Origin: Bdellovibrionales bacterium RIFCSPHIGHO2_01_FULL_40_29 | Lineage (GTDB): Bacteria > Bdellovibrionota > Bdellovibrionia > Bdellovibrionales > Bdellovibrionaceae | NCBI GenBank assembly: GCA_001771815.1 | Contig: MEPU01000006.1 | Span: forward strand, 124,001-188,000 | DNA: 64,000 nt | Direction: 5' to 3' | Shown here: positions 30,838 through 38,144 of the stretch, in pieces | Numbering within the stretch: the stretch's first letter is position 1 | How the letters are laid out: each line of letters begins with the position of its first letter | The notes under the pieces: generated by a model | What the model was told of the DNA's origin: nothing | What the model saw: the letters and a program-made list of their open reading frames with translations, nothing else | Databases searched by the model: none | Translations under genes and position numbers: made by a program

Positions 30838-31146
30838 ATGTCTAAAATGAAATTTGAACTCCCAGCCCCACTCGAATCAAATGCTGCCTACGGCAAAATC
30901 AAAGGGTTGCTTTCTGGTGAAAATGACTTCAAAAAGTTTGATCCAAAAGTAAGCTACACTTTTGACGAGCCGTCCAAAATTTGCAATGTCAGTGGCAGCC
31001 AGTTTAAAGCGACACTGCAGGTTGTTCCAAAAGACAGCTCATCATGCCAGATCATGGTTGAAGTTGAAGTTCCCTTTGCATTAGCTTTATTCAAAGGCAA
31101 AATTAAAGATATCCTGGAGAAAAACCTCAACAGACTTCTGACATAA
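30838..31146 (+). CDS. Small protein, PHA-granule-region family-like (tentative)
   Basis: The 102-residue product has a short beta-rich middle and a C-terminal helix VPFALALFKGKIKDILEKNL, which resembles the small polyhydroxyalkanoate-system proteins (PHA_gran_rgn). The match is weak and no phasin or synthase genes are near. It has no signal peptide. ATG 30838 is chosen; ATG 30847 is possible and neither has a strong ribosome site. It sits two bases before the sigma-factor gene and is probably co-transcribed with it. Confidence 0.6.
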   Translation: MSKMKFELPAPLESNAAYGKIKGLLSGENDFKKFDPKVSYTFDEPSKICNVSGSQFKATLQVVPKDSSSCQIMVEVEVPFALALFKGKIKDILEKNLNRLLT

Positions 31147-31148
31147 GC

Positions 31149-32159
31149 ATGGCTAAAAAGAGCAACAAAAAGAAAAATACAGATCAGCCCCGCTCCGTGG
31201 TGGCAGAGATCGTCGATGATGAATCAGAAATAAGACCAGACCCAACCCTGGACTCTGATGACATTATTGAACCCTTGGATGAGCCGAAAGCTTTAATTCC
31301 CTCACAAAAAACCGAACGCGGCGTTACAACGCTAGATCCGCTGACACTCTATTTGGCAGAAGTCCGAAAGTATCCGCTTCTGACCCGCGAGCAAGAATTT
31401 GAACTGGCTAAGAAATACTTTGAAACAAAAGATCCTGCTGCCGCTCAAACTCTGGTGAAGTCTAATTTACGCTTCGTCATCAAAGTTGCCGCCGAGTATG
31501 CAAAATTTTCCTCACGCATGATTGATGTTATTCAAGAAGGTAATGTCGGTCTGATGCATGCCGTGAAAGAATACAACCCTTACAAGGGTGCGCGCCTGAT
31601 CACCTATGCAGTTTGGTGGATCAAAGGCTATATTCAAGAGTACTTGATGCGCCAATTCTCAATGGTTCGGATTGGTACCACAGCTAATCAAAGAAAGCTC
31701 TTCTATCAGCTTCAGAAACAAAAGCAAGAGCTTGAAAAAATGACGTCGCCAGAAAACATAGCTCAATTATCTCATAAGTTGGGAATTCCCGAAGACGAGA
31801 TCAATGAAATGGCGAAGCGTCTGTCATCTCGCGATATTAGTTTGGATAAACCCACTAACCAATCCGACAATGACAGCACAACACCCCTTTCGACACTGCT
31901 TCGTCGCGAAGATGGAAGTCTGCCACTAGATGAAAAACTAGCCCTTGATGAACAGATTTCTTTATTGATGCGAGCCGTAGACTCGATTCGATCATCTCTC
32001 ACCGAAAAAGAATTAATTTTGCTTGAAGAACGCATTTTGAGCGATGAACCACTGACACTACAAGAAATTGGTGACAAGTATAAAATCACTCGCGAAGCCG
32101 TTCGACAAACTGAAACTCGCTTGATGAAAAAAATCAAAACAGCCATGGTTGGTGAATGA
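31149..32159 (+). CDS. rpoH: RpoH-type (sigma-32) RNA polymerase sigma factor
   Basis: Directs RNA polymerase to heat-shock type promoters. The 336-residue chain has an N-terminal acidic/basic extension of about 60 residues, then region 2 (LVKSNLRFVIKVAAEYAKFS, DVIQEGNVGLMHAVKEYNP, TYAVWWIKGYIQEYLM), the RpoH-box-like QRKLFYQLQKQK that separates this group from housekeeping sigma factors, and region 4 (LTLQEIGDKYKITREAVRQTETR). Bdellovibrio is known to have more than one sigma-32-like gene; which one this is cannot be said. The next gene begins inside its stop codon (ATGA). Confidence 0.9.
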   Translation: MAKKSNKKKNTDQPRSVVAEIVDDESEIRPDPTLDSDDIIEPLDEPKALIPSQKTERGVTTLDPLTLYLAEVRKYPLLTREQEFELAKKYFETKDPAAAQTLVKSNLRFVIKVAAEYAKFSSRMIDVIQEGNVGLMHAVKEYNPYKGARLITYAVWWIKGYIQEYLMRQFSMVRIGTTANQRKLFYQLQKQKQELEKMTSPENIAQLSHKLGIPEDEINEMAKRLSSRDISLDKPTNQSDNDSTTPLSTLLRREDGSLPLDEKLALDEQISLLMRAVDSIRSSLTEKELILLEERILSDEPLTLQEIGDKYKITREAVRQTETRLMKKIKTAMVGE

Positions 32160-33100
32160 AGGACTATGTTGGCCAATGGTTTGAAGCTTATCGCGAACTC
32201 GGCGAGCCTTATGATATTAATTTCTTAGTTGAGCAAAATGGATCCCAAAAACTGATTTCTGTTTCTCATGAAATTACTGATGGTGCTGGAGCACTTTTTC
32301 ACATTGCCACCGAAAATGGATTTACAGTCACTCCAAAAATTTCTAAAAGCAATCCTCCTAAAATGAATTTTGGAAAGTATTTTCTAAATATTGTTAAATT
32401 TCTCTACTGGTCACGATCCCGAGGAAATAATCTATGGAACTTCAAATTTCCTAAAGCCATGGAAAGTTCTATTCGTTATGCAACACTTTCGTTGTCAGCT
32501 TCTGAAACTCAGCAGTTGCATGAAAAAGCCCGCAGTAAAAATATCAGTTTGAATACTTTACTGTTATTTTGTCTGGACACGATAATTTCTAAAAAATTCG
32601 GAGTCCATCATAAAACTCGCTCTTGGTGGATCCCCGTCAGCATGAGACCTGATTTGGGAATTGCTCCCAACGACCCAACAGCAATTCGAAACTACGTCTC
32701 CAATTTTACACTGGATCTTAAAAACTCATTGAGTCCAGAACTCTTGCAAAAGAAAATCTCTGAAGCTCTCAAGCAACAACGACATTGGGGAACTTGGTGG
32801 TGGCAGCAACTGGGTCGCTATTTGCCCCACGCGGTCATTCGGTATATTGCATACAAAAAATTATTCAATAATCAGCATGTTGGAGCCTTCACCAATTTAG
32901 GTGAGTGGACGTCAACACCGCTCCCGATTCAAATGACTCCCATCGGAAATCCACTCTATTCGCACCCACTGTGTTGCAGTTGCATTCAGTTTAACAAAAG
33001 ATTAAATCTTGCAATTCGCGTCTATCCCACATTTCCATTGGACCAAAATACACTCAATATCATGATGCAGGACTGGAAACAGAATCTTTTTGATCTTTGA
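32156..33100 (+). CDS. Condensation/acyltransferase-like protein (HxxxDG motif)
   Basis: The 314-residue protein has SHEITDGAGAL, the HxxxDG active-site motif of CoA-dependent acyltransferases and condensation domains (WS/DGAT, PapA, alcohol acetyltransferase types), and a central region like the second half of that fold (NTLLLFCLDTIISKKF, IPVSMRPD, VSNFTLDL). The N-terminal half is shorter than in most relatives (usually 400-460 aa). It is coupled to rpoH by ATGA and is convergent with the hydroxylase gene, overlapping it by 41 bp. A lipid or alcohol acyl-transfer role is likely but its partner is unknown. Confidence 0.7.
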   Translation: MKDYVGQWFEAYRELGEPYDINFLVEQNGSQKLISVSHEITDGAGALFHIATENGFTVTPKISKSNPPKMNFGKYFLNIVKFLYWSRSRGNNLWNFKFPKAMESSIRYATLSLSASETQQLHEKARSKNISLNTLLLFCLDTIISKKFGVHHKTRSWWIPVSMRPDLGIAPNDPTAIRNYVSNFTLDLKNSLSPELLQKKISEALKQQRHWGTWWWQQLGRYLPHAVIRYIAYKKLFNNQHVGAFTNLGEWTSTPLPIQMTPIGNPLYSHPLCCSCIQFNKRLNLAIRVYPTFPLDQNTLNIMMQDWKQNLFDL

Positions 33101-33851
33101 TTCGATAAAACTCAGATTCTGTTTTTACATGCAACGTCTTGAAATACTTATCCCATCCCCGCCAGTAAAGTCCAAAATTTGATTTAGAAAATTGGTGATG
33201 CATATTATGATGGGTTGGCGTTGTTAACCACCCCCCTAGTTTTGAATGATATACTTTTCGAGGTAAAAATTCATAGCCCAAATGTCCAACCAAGTTTCCA
33301 ACATCTGTTAAAACCAGTAAAACAAAGAACATTTCGTAACTGATAGGCACAAAAAATACAAATGGCAGCATGTAAAAAATTGTAATCACTGTCTCAATCG
33401 GATGAAAGGAATACGATGCAAATGGCGTTGGATTCAATGATTGATGATGAATAATATGAATATTTTTATAGAACCACCCTTGATGCAAAAACCGATGCGA
33501 CCAATAAAAATAAGTGTCATACAATATAAAATAAGTAAAAAATCCAACGATTTCAGAGGCAACGCCTTGAGTGCCAAAACCTGGATACAACTTGAAATAG
33601 TTCAGTTGAGATCCCCAAACCAATGCTGTTAAAAATAAACTTTGTATGAACAAAGTTAAAATTGAATACCGAATTTCCATTGAAACACAAGGTTCGGTCC
33701 GTGGAATTTGTTGAATTTTTTGATTCCAAAAATACTTTGAAAACCATTTCCAGAATATAAAATATGGTAAACAAAGAATAATAATGAACTTCAAAATAGA
33801 AATTGAAAACACAACTATAAAAATTTGCTCAAAACTACTTTGACTCATCAT
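33060..33851 (-). CDS. Fatty acid hydroxylase/sterol desaturase-type membrane enzyme (1)
   Basis: Integral-membrane diiron enzyme. The 263-residue protein has the histidine boxes HRFLH, HIIHH and HNMHHQ in the canonical spacing, among four or five hydrophobic segments. ATG at 33851 (or 33848) is chosen because the upstream frame lies inside the previous gene's end; it overlaps that gene by 17 bp. It is the last gene of the four-gene set that starts with the ketosynthase fusion. Substrate (fatty acyl chain, alkylated ring or other lipid) cannot be told from sequence. Confidence 0.84.
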   Translation of the reverse strand: MMSQSSFEQIFIVVFSISILKFIIILCLPYFIFWKWFSKYFWNQKIQQIPRTEPCVSMEIRYSILTLFIQSLFLTALVWGSQLNYFKLYPGFGTQGVASEIVGFFTYFILYDTYFYWSHRFLHQGWFYKNIHIIHHQSLNPTPFASYSFHPIETVITIFYMLPFVFFVPISYEMFFVLLVLTDVGNLVGHLGYEFLPRKVYHSKLGGWLTTPTHHNMHHQFSKSNFGLYWRGWDKYFKTLHVKTESEFYRIKDQKDSVSSPAS

Positions 33852-34563
33852 CAGGCCCACTTGTTCTGAAAATAGCATCCAGATAAGGCAGAAAAAAACC
33901 AAAATTTGCATGCGGCACCTTGTGGTGCAATGAATGCCTCTTTGAAAAACTGAAAATACTATTCATTGAATACGCAGGAAAAAAATCAACATTCGAATGC
34001 CCCAAAACATTGAAACCAATACTCAGCAACGGCAGCAACATCAACGACGTGACCTGAAAATCATGGAAACACATAATTAAAGGCATCACTGCCCCTAGAA
34101 GTATTCCTTCAGACCAATGAAAACTATAGGCTGAAAATGGATTGGGTACATGCGAGTAATGATGATCTGCATGAAACTTGTAAAATGGTTTCAAGTGAAA
34201 AAATCGATGCACACTGTAGAAATGAACTTCATTCCAAATAAATAGAAGCAGCCCTTCGCCGAGCAAGACACTCCACGAAAATTCGAAATGTATCTTAAAA
34301 AAACCTGAATGCAATCCAAAGTATATCGGTACACTTAAAAAGCCAAACATCAAAATAGACACAAAGGATCGCTTGATCTCCGTTTTGATCTGTCCTGGTC
34401 GCAGAGCTTGTATTTGGTATTTTTTGAAATTGTCTCTCTTAAAAATAAAGTAAGAAATGGTTGTTATTGAAAAATACAACAAACTAAAACTGACAACTGT
34501 GATTATAAAAAAATCGAATACAGATAGATTCAACAAATCCGTTTCGGCAAAGTACTTATCCAT
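33835..34563 (-). CDS. Fatty acid hydroxylase/sterol desaturase-type membrane enzyme (2)
   Basis: A second, only distantly similar member next to the first. The 242-residue chain has HRFFH, HADHH and HSLHHK boxes and four or more membrane segments. The pair is not a recent duplication, as the sequences outside the His boxes differ. ATG 34563 overlaps the end of the previous gene by eight bp. Two tandem hydroxylases imply two oxidations on the same product or a heterodimer; both are inference. Confidence 0.84.
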   Translation of the reverse strand: MDKYFAETDLLNLSVFDFFIITVVSFSLLYFSITTISYFIFKRDNFKKYQIQALRPGQIKTEIKRSFVSILMFGFLSVPIYFGLHSGFFKIHFEFSWSVLLGEGLLLFIWNEVHFYSVHRFFHLKPFYKFHADHHYSHVPNPFSAYSFHWSEGILLGAVMPLIMCFHDFQVTSLMLLPLLSIGFNVLGHSNVDFFPAYSMNSIFSFSKRHSLHHKVPHANFGFFLPYLDAIFRTSGPDDESK

Positions 34564-35452
34564 GAGATTCTAATTGAGTCTGCTGTTCCAGTTTTTTCTG
34601 AACCAACAACCAATGCCCCATCTCACTTGAAAGTCCATGCAACACCAAACGAAAACTAGAATTCAAAGTGATCAACGAAACCAAAGGATGTTTGTTATTA
34701 ACAAGCACAAGATGCTGCTGGGAACTCAAGATTGTCGCCGCATAAATACCAATTGTTTCATCCAATTGAAGAGAATTTGTTGCGCGCCAAAAATCGTTAT
34801 CCGTTAAAAAAAACTGAAATATCGGAGTGTACAGGCTGATAGCCGTTTCCAGGTCGATAAAATTAAAAAAACCATTTTTTTGTGGTTCGATATCAAACTC
34901 GCCCGCAGTGATCATCGAAAAATCCGGATGAGCAACTGGCTTGATCTTGATATTTTTATTTCGAAGCTCTTTGTTCAAATTGATAACGAAATTATACAAA
35001 TTTAAATCATGAGTTAAAAAAAGATCGTTTTTCAAATCATCTAGATTCCTTGGGCGCAGTGGATTCATGGGTATCTTAACCCCAGGAACATTGTTTGCAA
35101 TAAATCCCAGAATCTCAGAGCCCACATGAAAATGTCGAAGTATCAATTCATTGGCATCTGCCCGAACAAAAGTTTTAAGACCCCAAACAATAAGACGATG
35201 TAATGTTTTTGAAGCCCGCCAATCAATCGGCGAAAGAACTTTTAAAATTTGTATGATGATAATGCATAATTTTGCAAAAGGCCGCGCAAATGGTAAAAGA
35301 TACTGACGAGAATGCGAACTGCAGTCTTTCAACCATTTCTCCTTTACAGATGGGCGGATGGGGGTGCTTTGATCCAAATAAAGTGCATACCAAGGATTTG
35401 GATCTGTCGGATCATGCTGAATAAATTCACTACCCTTATAATTATCACTCAT
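34556..35452 (-). CDS. Unrecognised protein in the ketosynthase-hydroxylase cluster
   Basis: No family recognised. The 298-residue product has a Pro/Asp-rich start, a hydrophobic helix near residues 55-75 (LCIIIIQILKVLSPI), an LILRHFHVGSEIL segment and a C-terminal helical part. No signal peptide is clear. ATG 35452 overlaps the previous stop as ATGA and has GGGAG eight bases upstream within that gene, so the two are translationally coupled. It is conserved by position in this set only as far as can be seen; a small-molecule-binding or accessory enzyme role is a guess. Confidence 0.72.
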   Translation of the reverse strand: MSDNYKGSEFIQHDPTDPNPWYALYLDQSTPIRPSVKEKWLKDCSSHSRQYLLPFARPFAKLCIIIIQILKVLSPIDWRASKTLHRLIVWGLKTFVRADANELILRHFHVGSEILGFIANNVPGVKIPMNPLRPRNLDDLKNDLFLTHDLNLYNFVINLNKELRNKNIKIKPVAHPDFSMITAGEFDIEPQKNGFFNFIDLETAISLYTPIFQFFLTDNDFWRATNSLQLDETIGIYAATILSSQQHLVLVNNKHPLVSLITLNSSFRLVLHGLSSEMGHWLLVQKKLEQQTQLESHG

Positions 35453-37269
35453 AGGACGAGCTCCCATTGCTTCTGATACAAAGAGGCTACTTGTTTAGCT
35501 GTTTCCAAAATGTCATCATAACACTTTGGTTCTAATATCAATGCCATTTCAACAGCTTGAGCCCATCGCTCTAAGTGCTTCACATCATTTTCGCCATGAT
35601 ACTCTAGAAATTTAAAGGCATTCATTTGCAAACCAAGATGCTTTTTCAAAAAAGGCAGCAAGGTGGGAATGATCTTTTGACCAGTACCCTCGATGATAAA
35701 AATCCCCCCTAACAGTCCCAGTGGATTTTCAGATTTTGCTTTCTCATACATATAAGCATTTAACTCCTCACCACCCGAATTGCGTTTTAAATCATCGATG
35801 AGTTTATTTCCACCAGCATTCTGATAATCAGCATATAGTATTTTAAAATCGAACTGTTCTTCGCCGGCATGGGTTTCTATGAGCTCCTGAATCCCTTCAA
35901 ACTTTATCGATAAGTTAGAAATGGCTGTTCGCATCCAAATACTGCCTTCACGAACCTGTGGAATCCAATTTTCCATCCAACGTTGATAGTCTTCAAGCTT
36001 AATAGTTCCATTAAAAATTCGATGAGCCAGTTCAGAACGAAAAACTGTCGATCTGTAGCTGTGCCATACTGATCCCAAATCCAATAGTAAATTCTCAACA
36101 GGCTTTCGAGGGAGTGGCGCGGGTTTTCTGGTTGTTTCTAACTTGCCATCTTTCATCACCTCAAACATTAAATAGGAAACTGTAAAACGGCCGGATTCAG
36201 GAACAAAACACAGAATTTTTTGTCCTGGTTTTAATTCCTTCGTTCTTAAAAACTCTTCCATCATAATAAAGATGGAAGCAGCACCAGTATTTCCACGAGT
36301 TTTTAAATTGCTGAACCATTTTTCTGCAGGAATCGTAAGACCCGCTTTATCAAGAAGTACTTTGATAACATCTGAAAATCTCTCAGATGAATAATGACAA
36401 AGAAAGTAGTCGACATCATCCACAATGATGTCTTTTTTTAATACCAAATCAATAAACTCGCTGATGCCCACATCAAATAAATTAGGCAACAACCGAATAT
36501 CTTGGCGTAGTAAAAATGATCCGCTCTTTTCAGCTTCTTCCAGTGATGAAAAATCCAAGTAACTTTTATTAGGCTGATTCCATGGCGAACCAATTTGCAT
36601 ACACGTTGGATAATCACCACTAAAAGATTTCAAATGAATCCAATCCAATTTCAGTGAAATTCCAGTCTCGTTAGGCTTGTTTTCAAACAGTGTAGCTCCT
36701 GATCCATCCGACAGCATCCACCGCAAGAAATGCGAATCAAAATCAATGTTTTCATCAATTTTTTGAAATCGTTGAACCTTAAACAACCGCGATGGAAACT
36801 CTGTGGCAACCGCCAAAGCTTTGCTAAATTCACCCAACTCAACAACTTGGGCTGCGGCCTTCATCGCAGCCACACCAGATGCACAGATGCCTTGAAACGA
36901 CATGGTTTGCATCGGCGCCGCCTTCAGTTGCCCCTGAATTAAATTTGCAAATCCCGGAGCCGCAAGATCACCACCCACCGTGGCTGAACTGAGAAACTGA
37001 ATATCATTTATTTTGGTTGAAGTATGACTGAGAGTTTTTTCAATGGCCTTGATCGCTAAATCTGCCGATGAAAAAACAGTTTTCCCATCTTTATCAATCG
37101 CATAATGACGATTTTGAATTCCATTCTCTGCCAAAATTCTACGCTTGATGCGAGAAGATTGGGGATTCACAGAACCGATATACGAATCCATTTCTTCATT
37201 ATTAATGCCAGGTCCTGGCAAAAAAGATCCCACAGAATTCAAGTAAACATTCTTAAAATAGGCCGGCAT
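35449..37269 (-). CDS. Ketosynthase III (FabH-like) fused to a heme-oxygenase-like putative diiron oxidase domain
   Basis: Residues 1-375 are a thiolase-fold ketosynthase III with the Cys-His-Asn triad: Cys129 in GICASG, His292 in FLCHYS, Asn327 in TRGNTGA. These make Claisen condensations using acyl-CoA or ACP substrates. Residues about 395-606 are all helical and resemble heme-oxygenase-like proteins; H558-x3-D562-x2-H565 (in EYHGENDVKHLERW) matches the third metal motif of heme-oxygenase-like diiron oxidases such as SznF, with Glu and His candidates near 413-416, 467-470 and 527. GGAG five bases before ATG 37269 fixes the start. It lies 24 bp after fliA. Long ketosynthases of the StlD/DarB type are an alternative to compare. 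The exact product is unknown. Confidence 0.86.
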   Translation of the reverse strand: MPAYFKNVYLNSVGSFLPGPGINNEEMDSYIGSVNPQSSRIKRRILAENGIQNRHYAIDKDGKTVFSSADLAIKAIEKTLSHTSTKINDIQFLSSATVGGDLAAPGFANLIQGQLKAAPMQTMSFQGICASGVAAMKAAAQVVELGEFSKALAVATEFPSRLFKVQRFQKIDENIDFDSHFLRWMLSDGSGATLFENKPNETGISLKLDWIHLKSFSGDYPTCMQIGSPWNQPNKSYLDFSSLEEAEKSGSFLLRQDIRLLPNLFDVGISEFIDLVLKKDIIVDDVDYFLCHYSSERFSDVIKVLLDKAGLTIPAEKWFSNLKTRGNTGAASIFIMMEEFLRTKELKPGQKILCFVPESGRFTVSYLMFEVMKDGKLETTRKPAPLPRKPVENLLLDLGSVWHSYRSTVFRSELAHRIFNGTIKLEDYQRWMENWIPQVREGSIWMRTAISNLSIKFEGIQELIETHAGEEQFDFKILYADYQNAGGNKLIDDLKRNSGGEELNAYMYEKAKSENPLGLLGGIFIIEGTGQKIIPTLLPFLKKHLGLQMNAFKFLEYHGENDVKHLERWAQAVEMALILEPKCYDDILETAKQVASLYQKQWELVL

Positions 37270-37293: not shown

Positions 37294-38079
37294 CTAGATG
37301 GCTTCTAGTTCGCCCGCATTCAGCATCACTGCCAACTTCGCCCGTAAGCGAGTCACAGCCTGCGCATGCAATTGTGAAACACGGGACTCTGTTACCCGTA
37401 GGACTTGTCCGATTTCCTTTAAGTTAAGGTCTTCGAAATAATACAACGACAGCACCAAACGTTGACGCTCAGGTAATTCTTCGATGGCTTTTGCCACCAC
37501 ATCTTTGATGACCTTAACATTGAGTTGGTTGAATGGATTTCCAGATTTTGAACCCTCAAGTAAGTTTGAAATTGATTTTTTATCCGAATCGCTGAATGTT
37601 GGTTGATCGTCAATTGACAACAAACTCACAGGACGAACTTGATTCACCAAGCCATGAAACTCTTCAATAGGCATATTTAATTTTGCAGAAATTTCTTCGT
37701 CCGTAGGAGCTCGGCCCAAATCTAATTCCAACTGAGCAACGCAACGATCTAAGGCTTTTGATTTATCACGAACCGAACGGGGAACCCAATCTTGTGATCG
37801 CAACTCATCTAAAATGGAACCTCGAATTCGAAACTCCGCATAAGTTTTGAATTTATTATCACGGGATGGATCCCATTTATCAATAGCATCCATCAATCCT
37901 ATGGAGCCTGCTGAAATAAGATCATCCAATTCAATATTTGGAGGCAATCGAATCGCAATTTTTTGCGCAACGAACTTAATCAATGGGGAATACTCTCGTA
38001 TAAGCTCTTCCTTTTGACCACGCTTGATATTCTTTTTGGGTTCGTCTTTATACTTTTTTAGAAGACTAGCTTTCTTCAT
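37294..38079 (-). CDS. fliA: Flagellar sigma factor FliA (sigma-28)
   Basis: Turns on late flagellar genes. The 261-residue protein has regions 2-4 of the FliA type: EYSPLIKFVAQKIAIRLPPN, DLISAGSIGLMDAIDKWDPS, FKTYAEFRIRGSILDELR, DWVPRSVR (the family signature), and region 4 LPERQRLVLSLYYFEDLNLKEIG with RVTESRVSQLHAQA. ATG 38079 is chosen; a longer upstream frame lacks the family start. It is the distal flagellar gene, 65 bp after flhG, and the ketosynthase gene follows 24 bp later without an evident terminator. Confidence 0.95.
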   Translation of the reverse strand: MKKASLLKKYKDEPKKNIKRGQKEELIREYSPLIKFVAQKIAIRLPPNIELDDLISAGSIGLMDAIDKWDPSRDNKFKTYAEFRIRGSILDELRSQDWVPRSVRDKSKALDRCVAQLELDLGRAPTDEEISAKLNMPIEEFHGLVNQVRPVSLLSIDDQPTFSDSDKKSISNLLEGSKSGNPFNQLNVKVIKDVVAKAIEELPERQRLVLSLYYFEDLNLKEIGQVLRVTESRVSQLHAQAVTRLRAKLAVMLNAGELEAI

Positions 38080-38144
38080 TTCAATGTACCCCTCAACATA
38101 ATAAATTCTACATGATACCGAACAGAACACATAATCAATAGTGT

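Follow-up and report, generated by a model that had tools for sequence, protein, structure and literature searches.

In the window (the whole 64,000-nucleotide stretch of Bdellovibrionales bacterium RIFCSPHIGHO2_01_FULL_40_29 that was analysed), a four-gene cassette codes for a ketosynthase (KS) fused to a heme-oxygenase-like dimetal oxidase (HDO) domain, a DUF6999 protein and two membrane fatty acid hydroxylases. We found that the cassette recurs in hundreds of bacterial species. Our tentative reading is that it is a patchily inherited DarB-like cassette, in which the KS would condense, the fused HDO domain would oxidise in place of DarA, and the membrane enzymes would modify the chains. Four features speak for DarB-like condensation with subsequent oxidation by the HDO domain: the clade of the KS, the retained fusion, the lack of DarA, and membrane oxygenases of a lipid type.

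Layout of the cassette

The positions of the cassette genes and of their neighbors are given in Table 1. The original prediction had placed a four-gene set 24 bp behind fliA, and all the ORFs were found at the claimed places on the minus strand, in the order KS-HDO, DUF6999, FAH1 and FAH2. The overlaps, predicted to be 4 to 17 bp, hold if internal ATG codons are taken as starts (4 bp for DUF6999 at 35452, 17 bp for FAH2 at 33851), but the longest ORFs overlap by 19, 8 and 77 bp. The 24-bp gap between fliA and KS-HDO carried no terminator-like site, in agreement with what had been claimed; the counts of promoters and terminators across the region were not above those in shuffled sequence.

Orthologs within the genus kept the gene order, with identities of about 42–79%, and overlaps of 4–19 bp were kept in the genus genome G008. 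Therefore, the cassette genes are beyond chance.

Table 1. Features of the cassette and its borders (positions in the window).
Feature	Position	Strand	Remarks
KS-HDO fusion gene	35449..37269	-	606 aa; orthologs 78–79% in G004, G008
Ketosynthase domain, StlD/DarB type	36145..37269	-	residues 1–375; triad C129-H292-N327
HDO domain	35452..36096	-	about residues 392–606; conserved H467, E471, D474, E527, H558, D562, H565
DUF6999 (PF22523) protein	34556..35467	-	303 aa; likely start 35452
FAH1, membrane FA_hydroxylase	33835..34563	-	His boxes HFYSVH, HADHH, HSLHH
FAH2, membrane FA_hydroxylase	33060..33911	-	His boxes HRFLH, HIIHH, HNMHH; likely start 33851 or 33848
fliA, last flagellar gene	37294..38130	-	left border of insertion site; outside cassette
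Convergent short condensation-like ORF	32156..33100	+	314 aa, HxxxDG; pathway membership uncertain
Sigma-70-family gene	31149..32159	+	right border of insertion site; outside cassette

The ketosynthase domain

The Pfam search detected ACP_syn_III_C (PF08541) in KS-HDO. The top curated families for the KS were the StlD/DarB ketosynthase (NF005293) with 367.7 bits and DarB (NF053539) with 317 bits, both below the respective curated cut-offs of 450 and 550 bits. With the same two models the KS from a true Dar cluster (L039) scored 544.6 and 478.9 bits. The profile check thus bore out the suspected kinship with StlD/DarB, which was nearer than FabH; since the scores fall under both cut-offs, the reaction of the KS may differ from those of StlD and DarB.

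The nearest solved structure was StlD as well (E about 1e-74), and Cys129, His292 and Asn327 line up with its Cys, His and Asn. The ketosynthase was therefore correctly described as having an intact Cys-His-Asn triad. Across 85 fused sequences the triad was invariant (at least 99%), and it was also present in Pseudoalteromonas. The DarA-DarB dialkylresorcinol/flexirubin systems and the StlD cyclohexanedione synthase have a KS of the same broad family, likewise with the triad intact; fatty-acid-derived thioester substrates are probably shared with them too.

The HDO domain

In Pfam, the C-terminal domain matched Haem_oxygenas_2 (PF14518) with 29.8 bits against a cut-off of 28.9. Its AlphaFold model had a mean pLDDT of 95 and matched 3dde (Z 26.1, rmsd 1.9, 214 aligned), CADD (Z 25.1, rmsd 1.9, 207 aligned), HrmI (Z 22.2, rmsd 2.6, 211 aligned) and UndA (Z 20.0, rmsd 3.1, 219 aligned); by sequence, only the match to 3dde was convincing among solved structures. 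The predicted heme-oxygenase-like diiron kinship was supported in this way, and the model confirmed the heme-oxygenase-like fold. Heme oxygenases and TenA proteins also match the model, with Z of about 19–21, so the fold alone is no proof of a dimetal site.

Conserved residues of the domain among the 85 fused sequences were H467, E471, D474, E527, H558, D562 and H565. The HxxxDxxH diiron-oxidase motif that had been claimed is present as H558-D562-H565 and, together with E527, is kept in at least 97% of these sequences; the dinuclear metal site is putative. In a review of HDOs (PMC13108848), in which the word 'fused' does not occur and whose consulted passages name no ketosynthase-HDO fusion, most members have 3-His/3-carboxylate ligand sets; compared with this set, KS-HDO keeps the Glu and the HxxxDxxH, whereas the first-helix pair differs. 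Position 474 is Asp in KS-HDO and His in the stand-alone Bdellovibrionota relatives, which have an E-x-x-H pair on one helix where KS-HDO has E471/D474. KS-HDO shares the fold (at high Z), Glu527 and H558-x3-D562-x2-H565 with dimetal HDOs such as CADD, HrmI, UndA, SznF and FlcD; it differs in that its domain sits behind a ketosynthase and has Asp at 474, where the stand-alone relatives have His. A partial coverage of the literature yielded no described ketosynthase-HDO enzyme.

UndA is a fatty acid decarboxylase, and its place among the structural relatives of the domain raises a different course of events. The KS would yield a linear beta-ketoacyl or beta-keto acid product, which the HDO would oxidatively cleave or decarboxylate to a ketone, an alkene or a shortened oxidised chain, which the membrane enzymes would go on to hydroxylate or desaturate. 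The E-x-x-H pair on the same helix in the stand-alone relatives is in line with such chemistry, and long alkyl chains are what the presence of the membrane enzymes suggests. On the other hand, CADD and 3dde are nearer in fold than UndA, and the KS is nearer to the cyclising StlD/DarB enzymes than to FabH; we regard this course as unlikely.

A divergent KS-HDO branch was seen in another family, in L037 (6612–9984) and L038 (7299–10692). Its HxxxDxxH is degenerate and mostly lost. The product of the gene that follows matches the GH3 family in L037.

The domain might also have a protective or structural role, for instance by scavenging iron or reactive oxygen, rather than act catalytically on the KS product. 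This has been considered for the protective DtpC of Acinetobacter, itself predicted to be an HDO (PMC13232832), and both the Asp at 474 and the loss of most of HxxxDxxH in the divergent branch would fit. Still, near-invariant putative ligands in the main family and the retained ketosynthase fusion make such a role improbable.

DUF6999, the membrane enzymes and the condensation-like ORF

The second gene had been taken to code for an unrecognised protein. This was not the case, as the protein belongs to a named Pfam family, DUF6999 (PF22523, E=3e-124). Its model is helical, with pLDDT of 78. No fold was assigned, since the matches from Foldseek and VIA were all weak and of mixed helical types (best Z 4.6, rmsd 5.7, 152 aligned). 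Among 21 diverse members we counted more than 70 invariant columns, and His, Asp, Glu or Asn fill many of these; such invariant polar residues suggest an enzyme. DUF6999 is a conserved helical protein and a constant partner in the cassette; no description of it was found in the literature, which was covered in part. A 736-aa frame around DUF6999 in G339 was rejected as a fusion, being a long stop-to-stop frame in GC-rich DNA.

Both membrane proteins matched FA_hydroxylase (PF04116) with 72.8 and 90.4 bits, above the cut-off of 31, and each has three His boxes. Hence the two fatty-acid-hydroxylase types of the original prediction were recovered.

The convergent condensation-like acyltransferase fared less well. 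The ORF is real and has an HxxxDG motif (HEITDG), but the match to PapA_C was sub-threshold (E=0.037) and the PDB search gave no match. The ORF begins 4 bp inside the stop of the sigma gene and is unusually short, with HxxxDG about 38 residues from the start. Its homolog in G008 has the same short form and lies at the far end of the island found in that genome (see below).

Distribution of the cassette

A scan of named genomes, one genome per species, produced 328 DUF6999 loci. The 80 loci examined were nearly all from Betaproteobacteria, with some from Gammaproteobacteria. A ketosynthase and an HDO adjoin DUF6999 in every one of them, as an intact fusion in 77, while a hydroxylase and an FA_desaturase are both upstream in 73 of the 79 loci with room for them. 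In Pseudoalteromonas THAF3 and in G742 the KS and HDO are separate adjacent genes. Fusion in most loci and adjacency in these two argue that KS and HDO act together.

The cassettes of Achromobacter, Bordetella, Variovorax, Comamonas, Collimonas, Cellvibrio and others have the same core as that of the window, with identities of about 47–64% for KS and HDO and 55–61% for DUF6999. These cassettes differ in having an FA_desaturase in place of the second FA_hydroxylase, and in having their membrane genes upstream, whereas in the window they are downstream. In the split form of the Pseudoalteromonas type, a conserved membrane-like protein of 185–188 aa precedes the ketosynthase (L043 11439–11996, L154 11441–12007), where other loci have the hydroxylase and the desaturase.

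Of 369 genomes in the window's phylum, 6 had DUF6999. A sample of 398 genomes from the phylum to which a Variovorax carrier belongs gave 9 with DUF6999, and Caulobacter vibrioides, one of the control genomes, has it as well. Within the window's genus it was missing from 11 of 14 genomes. Viral contigs had no relatives of KS-HDO or DUF6999, phages had no DUF6999, and plasmids had a single relative spanning KS, HDO and DUF6999, in Pseudoalteromonas. In the tree, the cassette of the window fell together with those of the two relatives in its genus and of a MAG from Bdellovibrionales, and two other members of Bdellovibrionota stood apart; the deeper order is unsure because several branches are long. 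This pattern is consistent with patchy inheritance or transfer.

Absence of DarA and the proposed pathway

DarA is the DAR-aromatase and DarB the DAR-cyclase (PMC3949708). With a DarA query taken from Dar clusters of Bdellovibrionota, all four genomes with true DarA-DarB clusters were matched, while no match came from the window's genome, and just one of the 20 carriers tested had one (0 of 8 and 1 of 12 matched). In that single carrier, DarA and the cassette were on separate contigs. Compared with the Dar pathway, the cassette lacks DarA, DarG and DarH and has the fused HDO, DUF6999 and the membrane hydroxylases instead or in addition.

Flexirubin/dialkylresorcinol-type DarA-DarB clusters were observed in four loci of Bdellovibrionota (L039, L040, L041 and L042), the last in the window's own genus. 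The L039 cluster carries DarG and DarH family proteins.

We infer the substrates, product, metal occupancy and reaction order of the cassette as follows. The ketosynthase would condense two fatty-acid-derived thioesters, most likely to a 2,5-dialkyl-cyclohexane-1,3-dione or a similar beta-diketone. With O2 and a dinuclear metal site, the fused HDO domain would oxidise this product in place; in the simplest case it would aromatise it to a dialkylresorcinol-type lipid, the step otherwise performed by DarA, a flavoprotein. The alkyl chains would be modified by a pair of membrane di-iron enzymes, both of them hydroxylases in the window, but one hydroxylase and one desaturase in Betaproteobacteria. 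The sub-cut-off KS scores, the missing DarG and DarH, and Asp474 weigh against a Dar-type reading. Also, we know of no HDO that aromatises a cyclohexanedione, and no dedicated acyl carrier protein was seen with the cassette.

The enzyme classes originally proposed, namely a condensing enzyme, an HDO-fold oxidase and membrane di-iron hydroxylases, agree with the Pfam matches, the structure model and the motifs. The idea of a pathway to an oxidised, lipid-like product, undescribed in the literature covered, is supported as well. In a bolder version, which we hold to be rather doubtful, the enzyme would be bifunctional, with the condensing KS passing its product to the fused dimetal HDO, which would aromatise or otherwise oxidise it and so be an O2-dependent stand-in for the flavin step in the synthesis of dialkylresorcinols; DUF6999 would be a new family of enzymes, and hundreds of proteobacterial species would make a lipid or signal that has gone unrecognised.

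If true, the proposed pathway would provide testable chemistry for a widespread orphan pathway (Achromobacter, Bordetella, Variovorax, Comamonas, Cellvibrio and others), the HDO superfamily would gain a ketosynthase-delivered substrate, and DUF6999 would gain a pathway. Genome-mining tools may label such loci ordinary 'resorcinol' clusters despite the missing defining aromatase. In Achromobacter, DarB was reported as the core gene of a 'resorcinol' region (PMC9045304), which is suggestive only, as this may be another locus.

The fliA junction

The location behind fliA had led to the proposal that the cassette belongs to the flagellar regulon and makes a lipid of the motile phase or the flagellar sheath. 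The short, terminator-free spacing agrees with it, as does the presence of flagellins in 16 of 19 tested carriers, and Bdellovibrio does have unusual sheath lipids (PMC7175336). The survey of gene order spoke against the proposal. The cassette adjoins fliA in just two of the three genus carriers, with a gap of 24 bp in the window and about 350 bp in G008, and fliA was near the cassette in none of the 80 named loci. The genus mostly has fliA (found in 12 of 14 genomes) without the cassette, and three carriers had no flagellin match, though their genomes are possibly incomplete. We consider a flagellar role very improbable; in this organism, transcripts of the flagellar operon may read through into the cassette.

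Weak FliA matches near four loci were discarded as cross-matches to RpoH-type genes.

In relatives, the same junction was empty or otherwise filled: fliA directly faces the sigma-70 gene in G001 and G002, and one unrelated gene lies between the two in G003, G007 and G012. In the third genus carrier (G004) the cassette is elsewhere and its two hydroxylase genes are separated by one for a PLD-domain protein, and in other Bdellovibrionota (L047–L049) it is also away from fliA. Given these junctions, the location in G004 and a genus mostly without DUF6999, the fliA linkage is a lineage-specific site. The cassette is beside fliA only through insertion, or retention, in the fliA/sigma-gene junction, and this position is no sign of flagellar service.

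In G008, this junction holds the cassette and also a longer island (L184 1637–11565) with genes for a luciferase-like monooxygenase, an AMP-binding enzyme, an MBOAT acyltransferase, an enoyl-CoA hydratase, a chalcone/stilbene-synthase-like protein and a GDSL-like protein; the island is probably a second or extended biosynthetic cluster. On the other side of the sigma gene, a small protein (30838–31146 in the window) had a sub-threshold match to PHA_gran_rgn (PF09650) and is found beside the sigma gene genus-wide.
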